Shown here piece by piece: positions 29,450-40,492 of a stretch of DNA of 40,492 nucleotides. Below the pieces are notes generated by a model. That model was not told the origin of the DNA, ran no database searches, and worked only from the letters and a program-made list of their open reading frames with translations. The DNA is from Deltaproteobacteria bacterium (GTDB lineage Bacteria; SAR324; NAC60-12): positions 4,367 to 44,858 of the forward strand of contig JABGPG010000108.1 in assembly GCA_018645085.1 (NCBI GenBank), written 5' to 3'. Position numbers and translations under genes: made by a program. Numbering within the stretch: position 1 is the first letter of the stretch; the number at the start of each line of letters is the position of its first letter.

Positions 29450-30709
29450 ATGAGTCGATTTCATTACCTCAAACAAGAACTTGTTTATCGCTTCGGCAGA
29501 AGCGCAGTTACTTTGATCAGCATTTCGTTAGTAGTTTTCATGGCAGTCACGCTGACCGCAATCAGTCGCGCATCCTCTGATGCTTTGCGGCTTCCGCTTG
29601 AAAACGTAGGTGCGGATATAGTAGTTCAGCTTTCTGGCGACATTCCAAAAAAGCTGGAAGGCCTTGTTTTTCCGCACCCAACCGCGCAACTTCCCGCAGA
29701 TGCGGTGGAGAAAATCCGCAAACTTCCAGGAGTCATCCGGACCACCGGAGCAGTATTTTTGTGGGACTTGTCTCCAAAAAAATTCCAGTCCTTATTAGGA
29801 GTTGACTCCAAAGGCACTTCGGGAATCCCCGGTTTGAATTCACAATTAATTTCAGGCAATCCGCTCGATCCTGAAACTGTACCGGTGGAAGCATTAGTGG
29901 ATGGTGATTTTGCTGCTAAGAATAAATTGAAGGTCGGTGATCAAATAGCATTGCAGGGACAGAGCTACCGCATTTCCGGAACAGTAGATACACCAAAATC
30001 CGGAAATATTATGCGTGCAGATATTTATTTGCCGCTTGCGGAAGCACAACTTCTAGCAAGTAAAGCACCCTGGATTATCGATCTTTATCCATTCACACAG
30101 ACGGATGTAAATTTACTTTTCCTCGAAGTTGATCAACGACATTTAGTCACTGTAACAAGTGCGGTAGAAAAAATGCTGGGTGAAAAAGCAATCGTTTCCA
30201 GCGAAATTTCTATTCAGGAAGAATTGGAAGACCTGATGTTTCTCTCAGATCAAATGAGTGTCATTTTTACTGCAGTAATCGCGCTGCTTGCCTTAGCGCT
30301 TTTGGCAAGAAGTACCGCTACTGCGATTGGTGAACGTCGCAGAGACCTTGCTGTTTTGCAGGCGGTCGGCTGGACACGACCCCGGATTATCAGTCAACTA
30401 TCACTTGAAACCGCAATCTTGTCTGGAGTTGGAGGATTGCTCGGACTTTTGTTCGCGTGGCTCGGAATTGCCTTGATTGGAGATGTGGAACTGGCGATGG
30501 AACTTTCGTGGGAAATCAGCCCCAGTCCGCATTTTTTACCAGAAACAGATTTTGACCGAACCCGGATGTTGGTCGCACCTATTCAAATGCCCTTGTTGAC
30601 TTCAGCATTGGCTTGGATACTAGCTATCTTAACCGCTGTTTCGAGTGCAGTCCTCGCCGGATTTAAAATGGTACGACCTCATCCGTGGCGCTGGTTAGCC
30701 GAAGATTAA
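29450..30709 (+). CDS. ABC transporter permease, FtsX/MacB type
   Basis: N-term TM after 'YRFGRSAVTLISISLVVFMAVTLTAISR'; periplasmic MacB-PCD-like domain; 'STATAIGERRRDLAVLQAVGWTRPRIISQLSLETAILSGVGGLLG'. Confidence 0.9.
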   Translation: MSRFHYLKQELVYRFGRSAVTLISISLVVFMAVTLTAISRASSDALRLPLENVGADIVVQLSGDIPKKLEGLVFPHPTAQLPADAVEKIRKLPGVIRTTGAVFLWDLSPKKFQSLLGVDSKGTSGIPGLNSQLISGNPLDPETVPVEALVDGDFAAKNKLKVGDQIALQGQSYRISGTVDTPKSGNIMRADIYLPLAEAQLLASKAPWIIDLYPFTQTDVNLLFLEVDQRHLVTVTSAVEKMLGEKAIVSSEISIQEELEDLMFLSDQMSVIFTAVIALLALALLARSTATAIGERRRDLAVLQAVGWTRPRIISQLSLETAILSGVGGLLGLLFAWLGIALIGDVELAMELSWEISPSPHFLPETDFDRTRMLVAPIQMPLLTSALAWILAILTAVSSAVLAGFKMVRPHPWRWLAED

Positions 30710-30776
30710 AATTATTTTTGCAGTAGATTTGAGGAAAGGCCGAAATTTCCTCTCACATTCAAAACAAAAAAAGCTT

Positions 30777-31451
30777 ATGTCAAATGCAATTCAAGTCACC
30801 AACCTTAGTAAGCAGTTCAATACTGTGAGCGTTCTGCGTGACCTTTCTTTTACGATTCCTGCCGGAAAAATGAGCGCCATTGTCGGTCGTTCCGGTTCCG
30901 GTAAAAGCACCCTCTTGAGTTTACTTTCAGGACTGGATTCCCCTTCAAGTGGTTCTGTTTCAATTGACGGAGTTGAGTTGGGCGGACTTTCCGAAACAGA
31001 ATTAGCGAAAGTCCGGAGGGAACGGATCGGCATTGTCTTTCAGGGTTTTCACTTGATTCCATCTTTGGATGCCCTGGCGAATGTGCTCCTTCCCGTTGCA
31101 TTTGAAGATAAAACAACACAAGCGGAATACCAAGATTTCGCGAAACAGTTGCTGACGGACGTAGAACTTGGACATCGTCTGAACCATCGTCCTGCTCAAC
31201 TCAGTGGAGGCGAACAACAACGAGTCGCCATTGCACGCTCATTAATTCAACGTCCACGGGTTTTACTGGCAGATGAACCCACCGGAAATTTGGACGAATC
31301 AACCGGAAAAACAGTCTTGTCACTGCTCCGGAAAATCAGCCATGAATATGGTACAACCTTGGTGGTTGTGACCCATGATGCGGAAATCGCACAACAGGCG
31401 GAACAACGCCTTCACTTAAGTAATGGAGAAATTTCTGATGAAACAAATTAA
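30777..31451 (+). CDS. ABC transporter ATP-binding protein, LolD/MacB type
   Basis: Walker A 'GRSGSGKSTLLS', signature 'LSGGEQQRVAIARSL', Walker B 'VLLADEPTGNLDE'; start MSNAIQVTNLSK at 30777. Confidence 0.95.
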   Translation: MSNAIQVTNLSKQFNTVSVLRDLSFTIPAGKMSAIVGRSGSGKSTLLSLLSGLDSPSSGSVSIDGVELGGLSETELAKVRRERIGIVFQGFHLIPSLDALANVLLPVAFEDKTTQAEYQDFAKQLLTDVELGHRLNHRPAQLSGGEQQRVAIARSLIQRPRVLLADEPTGNLDESTGKTVLSLLRKISHEYGTTLVVVTHDAEIAQQAEQRLHLSNGEISDETN

Positions 31452-31860
31452 TCTTAAAAGCTTTTTAGTTGCTGTAATGCTGTCTTTTGCAGTCAGCTTC
31501 ACACCAAACATTTGGGCGGCTTCACCTGTAGAAGTTGAAATCGTAGCACTCGACCATTGGCCGATTAGACGTGCCCTAGAACAAACACTTGAAATGCTGA
31601 AAACCTTTGGTGACAAAGTCACTGTGCAACAGATAGACGCAGATACAAAAGCCGGGAAAGCCCGTCTAAAAGCTTCCGGAATGAAGGGACATATTCCGGT
31701 TGTAATATTTGTAGATGGAGAATTCAAACACACACTTGAAGGACAAGAAGTCATTTTCGAAAACTTTCCGGTTGCTTCAGAAAGTCCGATGAAACTTGAT
31801 GGAAAATGGTCCGCAGGAGATGTTAGGGCAGTGATCGAAGCAAAACTTGGAGAAAACTAA
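31438..31860 (+). CDS. Periplasmic thioredoxin-fold-like protein lacking cysteines
   Basis: Signal peptide 'MKQINLKSFLVAVMLSFAVSFTPNIWAAS'; 'VEVEIVALDHWPIRRALEQTLEML...KARLKASGMKGHIPVVIFVDGEFKHTLEG' with cis-Pro-like 'HIPVVIF'; no Cys; overlaps ATPase 3' end. Confidence 0.65.
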   Translation: MKQINLKSFLVAVMLSFAVSFTPNIWAASPVEVEIVALDHWPIRRALEQTLEMLKTFGDKVTVQQIDADTKAGKARLKASGMKGHIPVVIFVDGEFKHTLEGQEVIFENFPVASESPMKLDGKWSAGDVRAVIEAKLGEN

Positions 31861-31861
31861 A

Positions 31862-33136
31862 GTGTCTCCTTTTAAAATACACAGCGTATATTTAATCAAG
31901 GAATTGCTTTACCGCTGGGGTCGTTCAATCTTTGTGGTTGGCGGAGTCGGACTTGCGGTTTCGATGGTGATTTTGCTGCCTGTTCTCGGTGAGGGTTTTC
32001 AGTCATTGGCGCAGCTGCCGTTTAAAAATCTAGCTGCAGATTTAGTCGTTCAACAAGGCACGACAGAATCCGCATTACCGGAAACTATGGGGCTGATGAT
32101 TCCGTATTCCGCTCAGCCAATTGCGGAAAATAAATGGAATTCTCTGCGTACAATTGAAGGTGTGACCGAAGTCATGGGAACAGTTTTGCTCTGGAATTTC
32201 GCGCCCGGAAAATTTTTCAGTGTAAGTGGAATTCCACTTCAATCCGTAATTGAAAACGAAAATAAAAATCCGGAAAAGCTGATCGGACCTGCGAGAGTCA
32301 AGGAATGGCTGATAAAAGGCCGCATGCCAAAAGCGGGGAAAAATGAAGCATTGGTAGAACGGCATTATGGTGCTTTTTATAGTCTGAAACCCGGAAAAAC
32401 TATCAAGATCGGCAGTACGTCTTTTACGATAAGCGGAATCGTGGATATTCAGCAAGGCAGCCAAATCGCCTCCGCAAATTTTTATCTGGACATCAACGAA
32501 GCGCGGCGCTTAGTAAATATGAAAGAGGGTCATGTCAATCAGCTTTTCCTGCGTGTCTCAGATCCTTCAAAAGCTGATGCTGCCAAGGCTTCCATTCAGA
32601 AAATAATTCCGAATTCCAGCGTCGTCAGTGCCGATTCTTTTTTGTCACTGCTCGGAACACTTTCCCGTTTAACCGGACAATTTCAGCAAGTAACTACCTC
32701 TGTTGCGGGAGTTCTGGCGTTACTACTTTTGATAGTCTTTTTACGTGGAGCAATGGGCGAAAGGCAACGCGAAGCAGCAGTCCTCCGTGCTATCGGCTGG
32801 AGCCGTGGACATGTGCGGAAACAGCTTTCCGCTGAGGCAGCATTTCAAGGTTTTTTAGGTGGAACAATTGGAGTGTTACTGACTTGGCTGGCTGCACAAG
32901 GACTTTCAACTTTAAAATTTTCTCTACCAAATGGTCTCCAAAAAAGCAACGATCCGGCTGCGTTTTTAGGAAGTCAATATGTCGCACCTGCGGTCGAAGC
33001 GAATTTGCCTTTGAACTTAGATCCGCACCTCTGGTTAACCGCACCAATTGCTACAGCACTCATTTGCGGAATATTGGGTTGGTGGCTTGCCGGACAACGG
33101 CTTAAGGGAACTCCATGGGGAAAAATACGTGCGTAA
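31862..33136 (+). CDS. ABC transporter permease, FtsX/MacB type (second subunit)
   Basis: 'YRWGRSIFVVGGVGLAVSMVILLPVL', 'GAMGERQREAAVLRAIGWSRGHVRKQLSAEAAFQGFLGGTIG'; starts TTG 31847 or GTG 31862 possible. Confidence 0.88.
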   Translation: MSPFKIHSVYLIKELLYRWGRSIFVVGGVGLAVSMVILLPVLGEGFQSLAQLPFKNLAADLVVQQGTTESALPETMGLMIPYSAQPIAENKWNSLRTIEGVTEVMGTVLLWNFAPGKFFSVSGIPLQSVIENENKNPEKLIGPARVKEWLIKGRMPKAGKNEALVERHYGAFYSLKPGKTIKIGSTSFTISGIVDIQQGSQIASANFYLDINEARRLVNMKEGHVNQLFLRVSDPSKADAAKASIQKIIPNSSVVSADSFLSLLGTLSRLTGQFQQVTTSVAGVLALLLLIVFLRGAMGERQREAAVLRAIGWSRGHVRKQLSAEAAFQGFLGGTIGVLLTWLAAQGLSTLKFSLPNGLQKSNDPAAFLGSQYVAPAVEANLPLNLDPHLWLTAPIATALICGILGWWLAGQRLKGTPWGKIRA

Positions 33137-35596: not shown

Positions 35597-36493
35597 ATGA
35601 AGATAATTGCTACAATAATATTTCTACTGTTTTGGATTTGTTCTTTTTCAGGGACTTTATGGAGCAAACCACAACACATAATCCTGACCGGCTCTCAAGG
35701 TACAGGTTCATATATTTTTGCTACTGAATTATCCAGACTTTGGGCATCTTCCCAGAAAACCAATAAGTCTGAGCTTGTGATACGCCCGGAAATTTCAGCG
35801 GCAAACCGTTTGACACAACTTTCAAATAACAGTATTTCTCTGGCAATCATTGACGCAAAATCCGCACATGAAGAGTTGAAAAAACATTCCGGACTGCGTG
35901 TTTTGTCTGTTCTCTGGAAGAATTGGCTGTATGTTCTGGGCACAGTTCCGGGGCCATTCCTTTCACTCGAAAGTACACAGACTTTGCTGGTGCATGATAA
36001 TTCACTCTATTTTGCGCAAGTCTGGAAAAAGTTAGCGCCACAAAGTAAAATAAACTGGTTCAACAGTAGTAGTATTCCGGATTTTACCGATGGTTTTTCT
36101 GAAGAAGTTTTGGCAGTTACAGGTCCAGTTCCTTTGCAGGAAATCAATAACTGGCTTGAGCAATTTGCGGGCATCCGTCTTTTAGCATTAGACCAGCAAC
36201 TGATACGCTCTTTGCGTTTAAATTACACTTGGCTAATTCCACATAAACTTCCGGCCAATTCATTTTCATATCAAGCTGAAGCATTGACAGGAGTAGCATG
36301 GAATCCAGTTTTAGTCGTGCGTGGAGATTTTCCGGAGGAATCGGCCACAACTTTGCTGAAACTGATTTTCGCGCAAAAAGATGCTTTAAATCCGCACCTA
36401 CTTTTCCAAATTTTACTTCGCTCTGATAACATTGCTTTCCGGAAAGTTTACCCCTATCATTCCGCGGCAAAAAAAATGTTTCGCTTCAAATGA
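35597..36493 (+). CDS. TAXI-family TRAP solute-binding-like periplasmic protein
   Basis: Signal peptide; 'HIILTGSQGTGSYIFATELSRLW...SELVIRPEISAANRLTQLSNNSISLAIIDAKSAHEEL' resembles TAXI SBP N-lobe. Confidence 0.7.
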   Translation: MKIIATIIFLLFWICSFSGTLWSKPQHIILTGSQGTGSYIFATELSRLWASSQKTNKSELVIRPEISAANRLTQLSNNSISLAIIDAKSAHEELKKHSGLRVLSVLWKNWLYVLGTVPGPFLSLESTQTLLVHDNSLYFAQVWKKLAPQSKINWFNSSSIPDFTDGFSEEVLAVTGPVPLQEINNWLEQFAGIRLLALDQQLIRSLRLNYTWLIPHKLPANSFSYQAEALTGVAWNPVLVVRGDFPEESATTLLKLIFAQKDALNPHLLFQILLRSDNIAFRKVYPYHSAAKKMFRFK

Positions 36494-37440
36494 AAATGCA
36501 ATTTGAACATATATCTGTTTTAGCCGCTGAAGTTGTCGATTTTGCACCGCAGACAACTCAGACAATTCTGGATTGCACTCTGGGCGGTGGTGGTCACAGC
36601 AAGCGTTTGTTAGAAAAATTTCCGGAAGCAAATTTATATGGTATTGATCGTGATGCAAAAGCATTAAACGCCGCAGCAGACTGTCTCAAGAACTACAAAG
36701 AACAAATACATCTAGAGCAAGCATCTTTTTCAGAATTACCCGAATGTTTTGAAAATTGGGGGGAACCTCGATTTGATTATATTTTGGCTGATATCGGCCT
36801 TTCTTCTGAACAGCTTGCACGTCCGGAACGCGGTTTTTCTTTTATGCATGATGGTCCGCTGGACATGCGCATGGATCCGGATCGTCAAAACCTCACAGCC
36901 GCGGCTCTAGTTAATAATTCAAGTGAACACGAATTGCTTAAAATATTACGCGATCTTGGTGAGGAACGCTTTGCCCGTAAAATAGTCAGTTCCATCCTCA
37001 TTGAACGTGAGAAAAAACCGTTTGAAACAACAAAGGAATTAGCCGATATGGTGGGCAACGTCATACCACGACGTTTCCAAAAGCCAGGATTTAATCCGGC
37101 AACATTAACTTTTCAAGCACTCAGAATAGCGGTCAATGATGAATTAAATGAACTTGGAATTTTGCTGAAAGAGACTCTGTCACGTCTGAAACCGGATGGA
37201 CGCCTGGCCATCATTTCTTTCCATTCACTGGAAGACCGGATGGTCAAACACCAGTTCCGTAAATGGGAAAACCCCTGTGTTTGTCCAACTGATTTGCCTT
37301 ACTGTATTTGCGGAGAGAAATCGCTGGGCAAAGTAATTACAAGACGGCCGGTAAATGCTACTGCCCAAGAAACAGCTGAAAATCCACGGAGCCGCAGCGC
37401 TCATTTACGTGTCTTTTCTTCTTCCAAAAATGCTGCATGA
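36490..37440 (+). CDS. rsmH: 16S rRNA (cytosine(1402)-N(4))-methyltransferase
   Basis: 'HISVLAAEVVDF...ILDCTLGGGGHSKRLLE', 'ADIGLSSEQLARPERGFSFMHDGPLDMRMD', 'RLAIISFHSLEDRMVKHQFR'. Confidence 0.97.
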   Translation: MKMQFEHISVLAAEVVDFAPQTTQTILDCTLGGGGHSKRLLEKFPEANLYGIDRDAKALNAAADCLKNYKEQIHLEQASFSELPECFENWGEPRFDYILADIGLSSEQLARPERGFSFMHDGPLDMRMDPDRQNLTAAALVNNSSEHELLKILRDLGEERFARKIVSSILIEREKKPFETTKELADMVGNVIPRRFQKPGFNPATLTFQALRIAVNDELNELGILLKETLSRLKPDGRLAIISFHSLEDRMVKHQFRKWENPCVCPTDLPYCICGEKSLGKVITRRPVNATAQETAENPRSRSAHLRVFSSSKNAA

Positions 37441-37910
37441 TTGAAATCCGCTGGGATGCTGACTGGAAAGGTTTGATAAATCAAAAACAGCTCGAGGAAA
37501 TTTTAAAAGTATTTCTAAAAAAATTGTTTAAAAATGAACGCGGTGTTTCGCTTTACCTTACTGATGATGCGGAAATCCAAAAACTAAATCAGCAATTCCG
37601 CGGCAAAGACAGACCCACGGATATTCTTTCCTGGCCATATGCCGGAGATGAAGCGGATTTAGATTTTCCGAAAGTTGAAGACACAGATGAAGTGGAATTA
37701 GCAGGAGATTTGGTGGTTTCTTTTGAACGTGTCCGGAAGCAGGCAGAGGAAAACGGCTGGGATTTTGAAACAGAACTAATTCGACTTTTGGCGCACGGAT
37801 GCGCTCACCTCGCCGGATGGGACCACGAACGTAGCGCAAAAGAAGCTAAGGAAATGCTGGAACTTGAGATTGAATTATTAAAAGAAGTCGGCCTGTCGAA
37901 CATTTATTGA
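37437..37910 (+). CDS. ybeY: Endoribonuclease / rRNA maturation factor YbeY
   Basis: 'LNQQFRGKDRPTDILSWPY', 'LAGDLVVSFERV', 'LLAHGCAHLAGWDHE' (HGxxHLxGxDH). Confidence 0.95.
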   Translation: MIEIRWDADWKGLINQKQLEEILKVFLKKLFKNERGVSLYLTDDAEIQKLNQQFRGKDRPTDILSWPYAGDEADLDFPKVEDTDEVELAGDLVVSFERVRKQAEENGWDFETELIRLLAHGCAHLAGWDHERSAKEAKEMLELEIELLKEVGLSNIY

Positions 37911-37958: not shown

Positions 37959-39290
37959 TTAAGCGCGAATGTAATGCAGTTTTTGATATTCTTTACGGAA
38001 TTCAATGACTTCGGATTTCAACTTTTCCGGACTTTCCTTTTGGACTAACACACGGCAGAAGAAGTCCGCAACTGTTTCCATATCTTCCGGACGCATTCCC
38101 CAGCGTGTAATTTCCTGGGTTCCCAGACGCATTGCGTTGAAATCACCGGGAACCGACGGCAAAGGCAAACCAATTCCACTGGTGAGAAGATTAGCTTTTT
38201 CCAGCAGCTTTGCCGCTGTGTCTCCGCCACCGTAAGCTGCGGCTGGAACAGCAACATGCTGTGAATTCGTAAAACCTTTTCCGGAAACCTCAAATACTTC
38301 ACATCCTCCGGAATGCAGAAATTCCGCGAGCGCTTGGGCGTTTGCAATGCACATTTTTGCGTATTCCTGCCCGTGTGTCAGCAAATCCAAAACCGCTATT
38401 ATCATTGCCGCAACACGGCTGAGATCAAAATTTGCGGTAAGTCCGGGAAAAGCAATTTTATCTAAACGCTCCGCCAATTCTGCTGAATTGCTCAAAATCA
38501 TTCCGGAAGGCGGTCCGCCAAAACTTTTATAAGTCGAACCGGTCATCAAATCCGCACCTTCTTTGAGCGGCTGCTGAAATTCACCGCCTGCAATCAAACC
38601 TCCCATGTGCGCCGCATCATATAAAATCCATGCCCCAACTTCATCTGCCACCTTCCGGACTTCACCCAGCGAATACGGAAACAAACACATACTGCCTGCA
38701 ACAATTATCAGTTTAGGTCGCACCTTTTTCGCTTCGATCATTAAAGCTTCCGGATCAACATCCATGTTTGCAAAATCAAAAGGTACCTCATGAATTTCAA
38801 GTCCGTAAAGTCCGGCCGCGCCCTCAGCATGATGCGTTACATGTCCGGCCGCAGAATCTGAAAAAGCCATGATTTTGTCACCCGGTTTGGTGGTTGCCAT
38901 GTACGCATAGAGGTTTGCGATCGAACCGCTGGGCACTCTGTACTCAACATATTTTGCATCAAATAATTTCCGCATCAGCGACATTAACATGATTTCCAAC
39001 TGATCGGCATGCTCCATACCTTTATTATACTTCGCTCCGGGATAACCTAAACTGGCTCTGTTGCCAATACTCGATGAAAGCATCTTGGCCGCTTTTGGAT
39101 TAATCACATTCGTTCCGGCATAAAGTACAATACTTTGCTGATCCATCAACTGTTCATGCGCGTCTACCAACGCAAAGGCTTTTGACTCAAGTTCATCAAA
39201 AGACATTTGCTGATACTTCGTTGCATATTGCTGAATAAAATGCTCCGTATCTTCTGGAACCCAATCTCGAAAATTATTGTATTTGTCCAT
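37959..39290 (-). CDS. Divergent serine hydroxymethyltransferase-family PLP enzyme
   Basis: SHMT-like 'GYPGAKYNKGMEHADQLE', 'LFDAKYVEYRVPSGSIANLYAY', 'ILYDAAHMGGLIAGG', PLP-Lys 'GSTYKSFGGPPSGMIL'; key catalytic residues differ from canonical GlyA. Confidence 0.85.
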   Translation of the reverse strand: MDKYNNFRDWVPEDTEHFIQQYATKYQQMSFDELESKAFALVDAHEQLMDQQSIVLYAGTNVINPKAAKMLSSSIGNRASLGYPGAKYNKGMEHADQLEIMLMSLMRKLFDAKYVEYRVPSGSIANLYAYMATTKPGDKIMAFSDSAAGHVTHHAEGAAGLYGLEIHEVPFDFANMDVDPEALMIEAKKVRPKLIIVAGSMCLFPYSLGEVRKVADEVGAWILYDAAHMGGLIAGGEFQQPLKEGADLMTGSTYKSFGGPPSGMILSNSAELAERLDKIAFPGLTANFDLSRVAAMIIAVLDLLTHGQEYAKMCIANAQALAEFLHSGGCEVFEVSGKGFTNSQHVAVPAAAYGGGDTAAKLLEKANLLTSGIGLPLPSVPGDFNAMRLGTQEITRWGMRPEDMETVADFFCRVLVQKESPEKLKSEVIEFRKEYQKLHYIRA

Positions 39291-39448: not shown

Positions 39449-39979
39449 TTAATCATCATTCGTCCGAAAACCGATTTTTCTCAATTTTGGCTCCGGCTGT
39501 TCCAGCAATTGATTTACAGTGTGAATAACCTGTTGCAATGATTTACCTTGCTTTGCCAGCTTGTTTTCTATAATTTCAATTTTCAATGCCAGAGTCTTAT
39601 CTGAATATAAAAGTTCCCGCATCCGCACAAAAGCCCGCATAATCAAAATGTTGATTTCGATAGCTCTCTTGCTTCTCAAAACAGATGATAACATGGCCAC
39701 ACCTTGTTCCGTGAAAACCATCGGTACATATCTAGTGCCTCCCCAATTTGAGGTCGAAAATTGCGTCCTCAAGTTTTCTGCTTCATCTTTGGATAATTCA
39801 AACATGAAATCCGCTGGAAACCTCCCAATGTTTCTTCGAACAGATTCTTTGAGTCGTTTAGTTTCAACACCATACAACTCGGCCAAATCACGATCCAGCA
39901 TCACCTTTTCACCACGAATCCGCAGGATCTTTGCTGAAACTTGCTCAAGTGACAGCATTATATTTTTTGAATCACTCAT
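39449..39979 (-). CDS. ORF6N-domain protein
   Basis: 'LEQVSAKILRIRGEKVMLDRDLAELYGVETKRLKESVRRNIGRFPADFMFELSKDEAENLRTQFSTSNWGGTRYVPMVFTEQGVAMLSSVLRSKRAIEINILIMRAFVRMREL'; start MSDSKN at 39979 likely. Confidence 0.92.
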   Translation of the reverse strand: MSDSKNIMLSLEQVSAKILRIRGEKVMLDRDLAELYGVETKRLKESVRRNIGRFPADFMFELSKDEAENLRTQFSTSNWGGTRYVPMVFTEQGVAMLSSVLRSKRAIEINILIMRAFVRMRELLYSDKTLALKIEIIENKLAKQGKSLQQVIHTVNQLLEQPEPKLRKIGFRTNDD

Positions 39980-40492
39980 GAAATTTAAGTTACAGAATAA
40001 GTCATCTCCACACTGTTCCTTAATCGAAGTATCAAGGGGCAAGTGAAAAAAGTCAAGGCATCGCCAGTAGAAATAATTCTGCATCTACTTTCAGAAATGG
40101 AGTCAGTACCTTTACTTAAAGGAACCTCTAAAAACTCTTTTTTCAAGTAATTATTAAATAACTAAACCTGTAGCAATCAGCAGATAGAGTGAAGTCAAAT
40201 CCTGAATCCAGTCTAATAAATTCCTTAGACGCCCATCAGGGAACGGTTTTAGAGTTGCCATTATTTGAGAAACGGTTGAGATTTTGACCAGACTCAGAAA
40301 CAGTTTCATCTGCATGCTCTGCCCGCAAATTTTAGGTTTTGAATTGTGAAGTCTTCACGGTTATGGTGGAATAGTAAGGCAGGAAAGATTAATTTGTCGA
40401 ATTTAGAACTAATCATCAGTAAAGAAATACGTGTCAACAACAACGACTAGATTGTCCGCAAAAAAACCTCCGTGGTTGAAAGTTCCATTTCC

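Follow-up and report, generated by a model that had tools for sequence, protein, structure and literature searches.

The window, by which we mean the whole stretch of 40,492 nucleotides that was analysed, contains a gene encoding an SHMT-fold PLP enzyme in which the catalytic Glu of serine hydroxymethyltransferase (SHMT) is replaced by Leu; the changes in its active site are fixed across a single clade that evolves under purifying selection. That this protein should not be called GlyA is supported by its residue pattern, its place in the tree and its score against the curated profile cut-off. Our preferred reading, still tentative and put a little short of even, is that it is a PLP-dependent, THF-independent aldolase for alpha-substituted serines, of the alpha-methylserine aldolase type.

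The gene lies on the minus strand, which the earlier note left unstated, and encodes 443 aa from an ATG start; the plus strand opposite it shows many stops in the reading-frame check. Eight further genomes of the genus also have the convergent pair ybeY-rsmH next to this gene or to what remains of it. The ORF6N-domain gene on its upstream side is not a conserved neighbour at the congener loci, where just partial ORF6N matches are found near two congeners, and it is outside the system of the SHMT-like gene. In the neighbourhood comparison, the SHMT-like gene of SAR324 is a singleton that stands alone, and no biosynthetic cluster was found near it. The closest named records for the window are the deltaproteobacterial MAG CPC1 (95%) and SAR324-CTD7B (88%), and the genome of the window (G000), of the SAR324 clade, is 88% complete in 294 contigs. 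Elsewhere in the window (29450-33136), and read only from the translations, two MacB/FtsX-like permeases flank an ABC ATPase together with a small thioredoxin-like ORF.

Table 1. Position and basis of the features of the SHMT-like gene, its protein and its neighbours in the window.
Feature	Position	Strand	Basis
SHMT-fold (PF00464) PLP enzyme, stand-alone gene	37959..39290	-	ORF and translation; Pfam; AlphaFold2 model; Foldseek
Convergent neighbours rsmH and ybeY	36490..37910	+	ORF list; congener loci
Upstream ORF6N-domain protein	39449..40084	-	PF10543, 121 bits
Residues 77-91, NRASLGYPGAKYNKG: loop with Ala79 (Tyr55 site), Leu81 (catalytic Glu site) and Asn89 (Tyr65 site)	39018..39062	-	Gap-free alignment
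Residues 225-232, DAAHMGGL: PLP-pyridine Asp225 and His228	38595..38618	-	Asp225 and His228 invariant in 92/92
Residues 251-263, GSTYKSFGGPPSG: PLP lysine Lys255, preceded by Tyr254 (E. coli SHMT His228 site)	38502..38540	-	Tyr254 and Lys255 invariant in 92/92
Arg388, equivalent of the substrate-carboxylate Arg363	38127..38129	-	Invariant in 91/91 with the position present

The phmmer alignments against the SHMTs of M. jannaschii (4uqv/4bhd) and T. thermophilus (2dkj) show no gap through the catalytic loop, which aligns Leu81 with the catalytic Glu and Ala79 with Tyr55. A canonical Glu at another position of the loop is thereby ruled out, since it would require a gap. In E. coli numbering, four residues are replaced (Tyr55 by Ala79, Glu57 by Leu81, Tyr65 by Asn89 and His228 by Tyr254) and five are kept: Lys229 (Lys255), Asp200 (Asp225), His126 (His150), His203 (His228) and Arg363 (Arg388). 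The earlier note had proposed, by eye, the Tyr to Ala and Glu to Leu changes of the loop, and the alignment places both; the altered PLP-lysine motif and the change of SEN to GTN that it described are also confirmed, since GTN (residues 59-61) and the three motifs of Table 1 are exact in the translation, and the PLP lysine and DAAHMGGL are kept as it said, Lys255, Asp225 and His228 being invariant in all 92 family members. The changes at Tyr65 and at E. coli His228 are two further ones, beyond those singled out there.

The protein matches the Pfam SHMT family (PF00464) with 167.7 bits, over the cut-off of 27, and shows 305.1 bits on the NCBIfam SHMT model PRK00011, below its cut-off of 335, where its relatives show 262-274 bits. 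The fluorothreonine transaldolase model TIGR04506 gives 192.7 bits, far under its cut-off of 650, and Beta_elim_lyase (PF01212), the family of low-specificity threonine aldolase, gives 24.4 bits, under its cut-off of 27. The AlphaFold2 model (pLDDT 93.5, pTM 0.93) has the M. jannaschii SHMT 4uqv as its best Foldseek match, with a TM of 0.88-0.93 at about 2 A. Confidence in the model is low in few places, and the catalytic loop is one of them, with block means of 82 for residues 71-80 and 65 for residues 81-90, as would be expected of a loop packing against the partner subunit. The score on the curated model, the position outside the GlyA clade and the replacement of Glu, Tyr55, Tyr65 and His228 together uphold the advice, given when the sequence was first read, against a glyA label.

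Among 91-92 family members, Leu81, Arg78, Lys87, Tyr254, Lys255, Asp225, His228 and Arg388 are invariant, Leu81 being present in all 91 that have the loop, and position 79 is occupied only by Pro, Ala, Thr or Ser. Position 89 shows Glu in 73 of 91 members, which takes in most of the distant ones, and Asn in the subgroup of the window, so the subgroups may differ in substrate. The contig scan that collected the family used Leu-containing patterns, and the invariance of Leu81 there is therefore partly circular; in a motif-free recheck, a whole-protein search of SAR324 relatives, plasmids and 399 Pseudomonadota genomes, Leu was found in all members that retain the loop, including 13 from Pseudomonadota genomes. 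A joint alignment of 109 SHMT homologues contains 51 family members and 58 others. All 51 show a small residue at the Tyr55 site, Leu at the Glu site, Tyr254, the Lys and the Arg, and 50 of them show the full signature small-Leu-Tyr-(Glu/Asn)-Tyr-Lys-Arg; the exception, L034, keeps Pro, Leu and Tyr254, with Phe and Pro at two positions. At those sites, 54 of the 58 other homologues show Tyr-Glu-(Tyr/Phe/Leu)-Tyr-His-Lys, and the only ones with a residue other than Tyr at the Tyr55 site also have a changed His228 (T..F, T..Y, A..Q). Another Glu-less SHMT homologue was found in Bosea (L183, genome G051); it shows NRAPMGLPG, with Met at the Glu site and Gln before the PLP lysine, and lies on a very long branch outside the clade of the Leu81 family.

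The Leu81 family is one clade of 51 rows (SH-aLRT 99), separate from GlyA; archaeal SHMT and the SAR324 SHMT of the L001 type share its side of the tree, where the branching order is unsure because of several long branches. The dN/dS against congeners is about 0.07-0.10, which rules out a pseudogene or drift. The distribution of the family is patchy: it is present in 13 of 398 other Pseudomonadota genomes and also in Chloroflexota and SAR324, and Bosea contributes five of the 80 family loci of the contig scan. In two congeners, G004 (L047/L074) and G012 (L046/L075), all that was found of the gene is a broken 3' part interrupted by a stop, which ybeY-rsmH still adjoins; that of G012 is at a contig end.

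The genome of the window contains three SHMT-type genes: the studied gene, C92 (L001) and C33 (L003). The product of C92 keeps Tyr-Glu-Tyr-Tyr-His and, with 339 bits, is over the SHMT cut-off though cut by the contig end. C33 (L003:175-2841) encodes a GcvT-SHMT fusion of 888 aa whose SHMT half keeps Tyr, Glu and His; a similar open frame of 888-923 aa recurs in eight further genomes of that family. Of the named genomes with a member of the Leu81 family, 16 were examined, and each has a canonical glyA as well (523-594 bits). Since an SHMT with the full signature is found in G000 and glyA in 16/16, the window gene is an additional enzyme and not the housekeeping SHMT. The lack of any second glyA, which the earlier note had taken as telling against its own reading, is not what the genome shows, for the L001 product lies over the cut-off with Tyr and Glu intact. 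In the genus of the window, two further SHMT homologues (L015 and L017, of genomes G003 and G012) carry Thr at the Tyr55 site and His at the Tyr65 site, the signature published for alpha-methylserine hydroxymethyltransferase at these two positions, and their PLP lysine is preceded by Phe; they keep the Glu and therefore look like folate-dependent alpha-methylserine enzymes, so that alpha-methylserine may be a substrate class met in this clade. Neither G003 nor G012 has an intact window-type copy. Replacement of the window-type gene by the alpha-methylserine-hydroxymethyltransferase-like gene is not significant among 17 genomes, and G004 lost the former without gaining the latter.

We infer the substrate assignment and the stereochemistry from these residues, as we do the loss of THF chemistry, which is well supported by the residue pattern. 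In T. thermophilus SHMT, the substrate is bound by Arg358 and Tyr61, while Glu53 keeps hold of the serine hydroxyl and takes part in the THF-dependent step (PMC10397204). Donor specificity is set by Tyr55 and Tyr65; alpha-methylserine hydroxymethyltransferase has Thr60 and His70 there, and SHMT Y55T accepts D-Ala and D-Ser (PMC6411801, PMC4761611). Because a small residue at the Tyr55 site marks both that enzyme and the engineered SHMT Y55T, the window protein is read as acting on alpha-substituted serines, and among the chemistries named in the earlier note the alpha-methylserine type fits best. Such an enzyme would cleave or form the Calpha-Cbeta bond of these serines, as in alpha-methylserine <-> alanine + formaldehyde. 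With Glu53/57 absent, folate-coupled transfer would be lost; the small residue at the Tyr55 site would enlarge the alpha pocket to take a quaternary alpha carbon, and formaldehyde or another aldehyde would leave by plain retro-aldol cleavage. Glu53 has also been argued to be the base in THF-independent cleavage (PMC10397204), so a Glu-less aldolase should be slow unless another group substitutes, which counts against the aldolase reading, as do the singleton gene in SAR324, the Asn89/Glu89 split between subgroups and the neighbours elsewhere, which name no one pathway. More doubtful is the wider proposal that this is a widespread, undescribed SHMT-fold family without the catalytic Glu that acts on quaternary alpha-amino acids, its two subgroups differing at the Tyr65 site: KYEMG would have re-installed a carboxylate, and KYNKG, that of the window with Asn, would need another base, for instance Tyr254 or a water bound by the active-site histidines.

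An aldolase or transaldolase that is also THF-independent and that converts beta-hydroxy-amino acids with an alpha hydrogen (L-threonine, allo-threonine, beta-phenylserine) into glycine and an aldehyde is unlikely by comparison. The SHMT fold and the His/Asp/Lys/Arg set of the ObiH type (H150, D225, K255 and R388; PMC10495429) are consistent with it, as is the match to the fluorothreonine transaldolase model. However, that match is weak and far under the cut-off, the gene lies near no biosynthetic cluster, and the Tyr55 of ObiH is lost, the small residue there predicting a bulkier alpha substituent. The Streptomyces plasmid pFRL3 (L214:3800-5089) carries an SHMT-like gene beside genes for a P450, a radical SAM protein, a glycosyltransferase and a carbamoyltransferase; its product may be a transaldolase-type enzyme for a natural product.

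Gene neighbourhoods were compared by clustering the genes from 91 loci, repeated with a codon-usage gene finder, with Pfam searches on representative neighbours. Only LysR-type regulators recur (29 loci), and the other partners are lineage-specific, so the context does not fix the substrate. These partners include an L-serine dehydratase 15 bp downstream of the family gene on a Paraburkholderia plasmid (L033), a HAD phosphatase (L094), the serine acetyltransferase CysE (L117), a PhyH dioxygenase (L098) and NeuB with a cytidylyltransferase (L080). Several of them touch serine metabolism or hydroxylation, and no single pathway emerges. In Dongia-type genomes (L080-L082) NeuB and a cytidylyltransferase-glycosyltransferase-GNAT fusion are encoded immediately before the family gene, in what looks like a nonulosonic acid locus. 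The Mesorhizobium plasmid locus L034:886-13990 contains an AibH1/AibH2-like pair, Rieske and FAD partners, an amino-acid ABC transporter, the Glu-less SHMT homologue, DhaK/DhaL and a DAO-type oxidase, and has the appearance of a catabolic island serving an alpha-quaternary compound. Microvirga terrae (L160) shows an AibH-like pair followed directly by DhaK/DhaL, without an SHMT homologue.

The Mesorhizobium locus bears on another reading, an improbable one for the window protein, in which it would be an AibC-like decarboxylase converting 2-amino-2-methylmalonate or a related aminomalonate into L-alanine. AibC is an SHMT homologue of 452 aa that has no hydroxymethyltransferase activity and decarboxylates Amma to L-Ala (PMC7782822). 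L034, at 41% identity the deepest relative, lies near two genes with the AibH subunits as best matches of their products, and near Rieske and FAD partners, and part of the clade may therefore do AibC-like chemistry. Against this, an AibH-like monooxygenase gave no match at 1e-10 in the 88% complete genome of the window, and the close relatives lack AibH-like context. In the search for AibC itself, no SHMT homologue was found on the Rhodococcus plasmid stretches with an AibH-like gene.

It is very unlikely that the protein is a genuine folate-dependent SHMT in which another residue stands in for the Glu: the PF00464 match well over its cut-off and the M. jannaschii SHMT as nearest solved relative (TM about 0.9) agree with this, but Glu, Tyr55, Tyr65 and His228 are all replaced and fixed in the family, the score is below the NCBI SHMT cut-off, and the same genome has other SHMT genes with the full signature. 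Least probable is a different PLP reaction, such as the racemisation or transamination that SHMT-fold enzymes show as side reactions, for which all the general PLP residues are kept, but to which no residue or neighbour points specifically.

The family is encoded on hundreds of genomic stretches and is easily mistaken for a second serine hydroxymethyltransferase, and such a misreading would give metabolic models a folate reaction that is false. If the preferred reading is true, folate-independent aldolases for quaternary amino acids would exist in nature as a widespread family; such enzymes are sought for synthesis and have so far come from few strains and from the engineered SHMT Y55T. The source of such amino acids in the sea would then become a question. 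The wider proposal of a Glu-less family with quaternary substrates would imply a natural supply of alpha-methylserine-like compounds in the ocean. The Glu-less active site also offers a natural test of the still debated role of Glu as base when cleavage is independent of folate.

Compared with known systems, the window protein shares with GlyA (PF00464, PRK00011) the fold type I SHMT fold, PLP Lys255, Asp225, His150, Arg388 and the GYPG loop, and differs in Glu57 to Leu, Tyr55 to Ala, Tyr65 to Asn and His228 to Tyr, in its separate clade and in its score below the curated cut-off. No solved structure is nearer, in sequence (289 bits) or in fold, than the M. jannaschii SHMT (4uqv, 4bhd), which lies on the same deep tree branch; its residues at the Tyr55, Glu57, Tyr65 and His228 sites, however, are the canonical Tyr, Glu, Tyr and His. 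ObiH, FTase and LipK are SHMT-like and folate-independent, and the catalytic His/Asp/Lys is kept; ObiH has Tyr55 where the window protein has Ala79, they belong to natural-product clusters, and the window protein is far below the TIGR04506 cut-off. AibC, compared by description, is likewise an SHMT homologue; its length is similar and it lacks hydroxymethyltransferase activity, and the deepest family member lies near an AibH1H2-like pair; it belongs to the aib operon, which is apparently absent from the genome of the window. Alpha-methylserine aldolase is known from Ralstonia, Variovorax and Bosea, the activity from Bosea having reportedly been described by Nozaki in 2008, and family members are also present in Bosea genomes. 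Compared by its described activity, it is PLP-dependent and THF-independent (PMC7918591), as predicted here for the window protein. Alpha-methylserine hydroxymethyltransferase resembles the window protein in having residues other than Tyr at the Tyr55 and Tyr65 sites; in contrast, its residues there are Thr and His (PMC6411801), it is THF-dependent and the homologues with Thr/His keep the Glu, whereas the window protein shows Ala79 and Asn89 and lacks the Glu.
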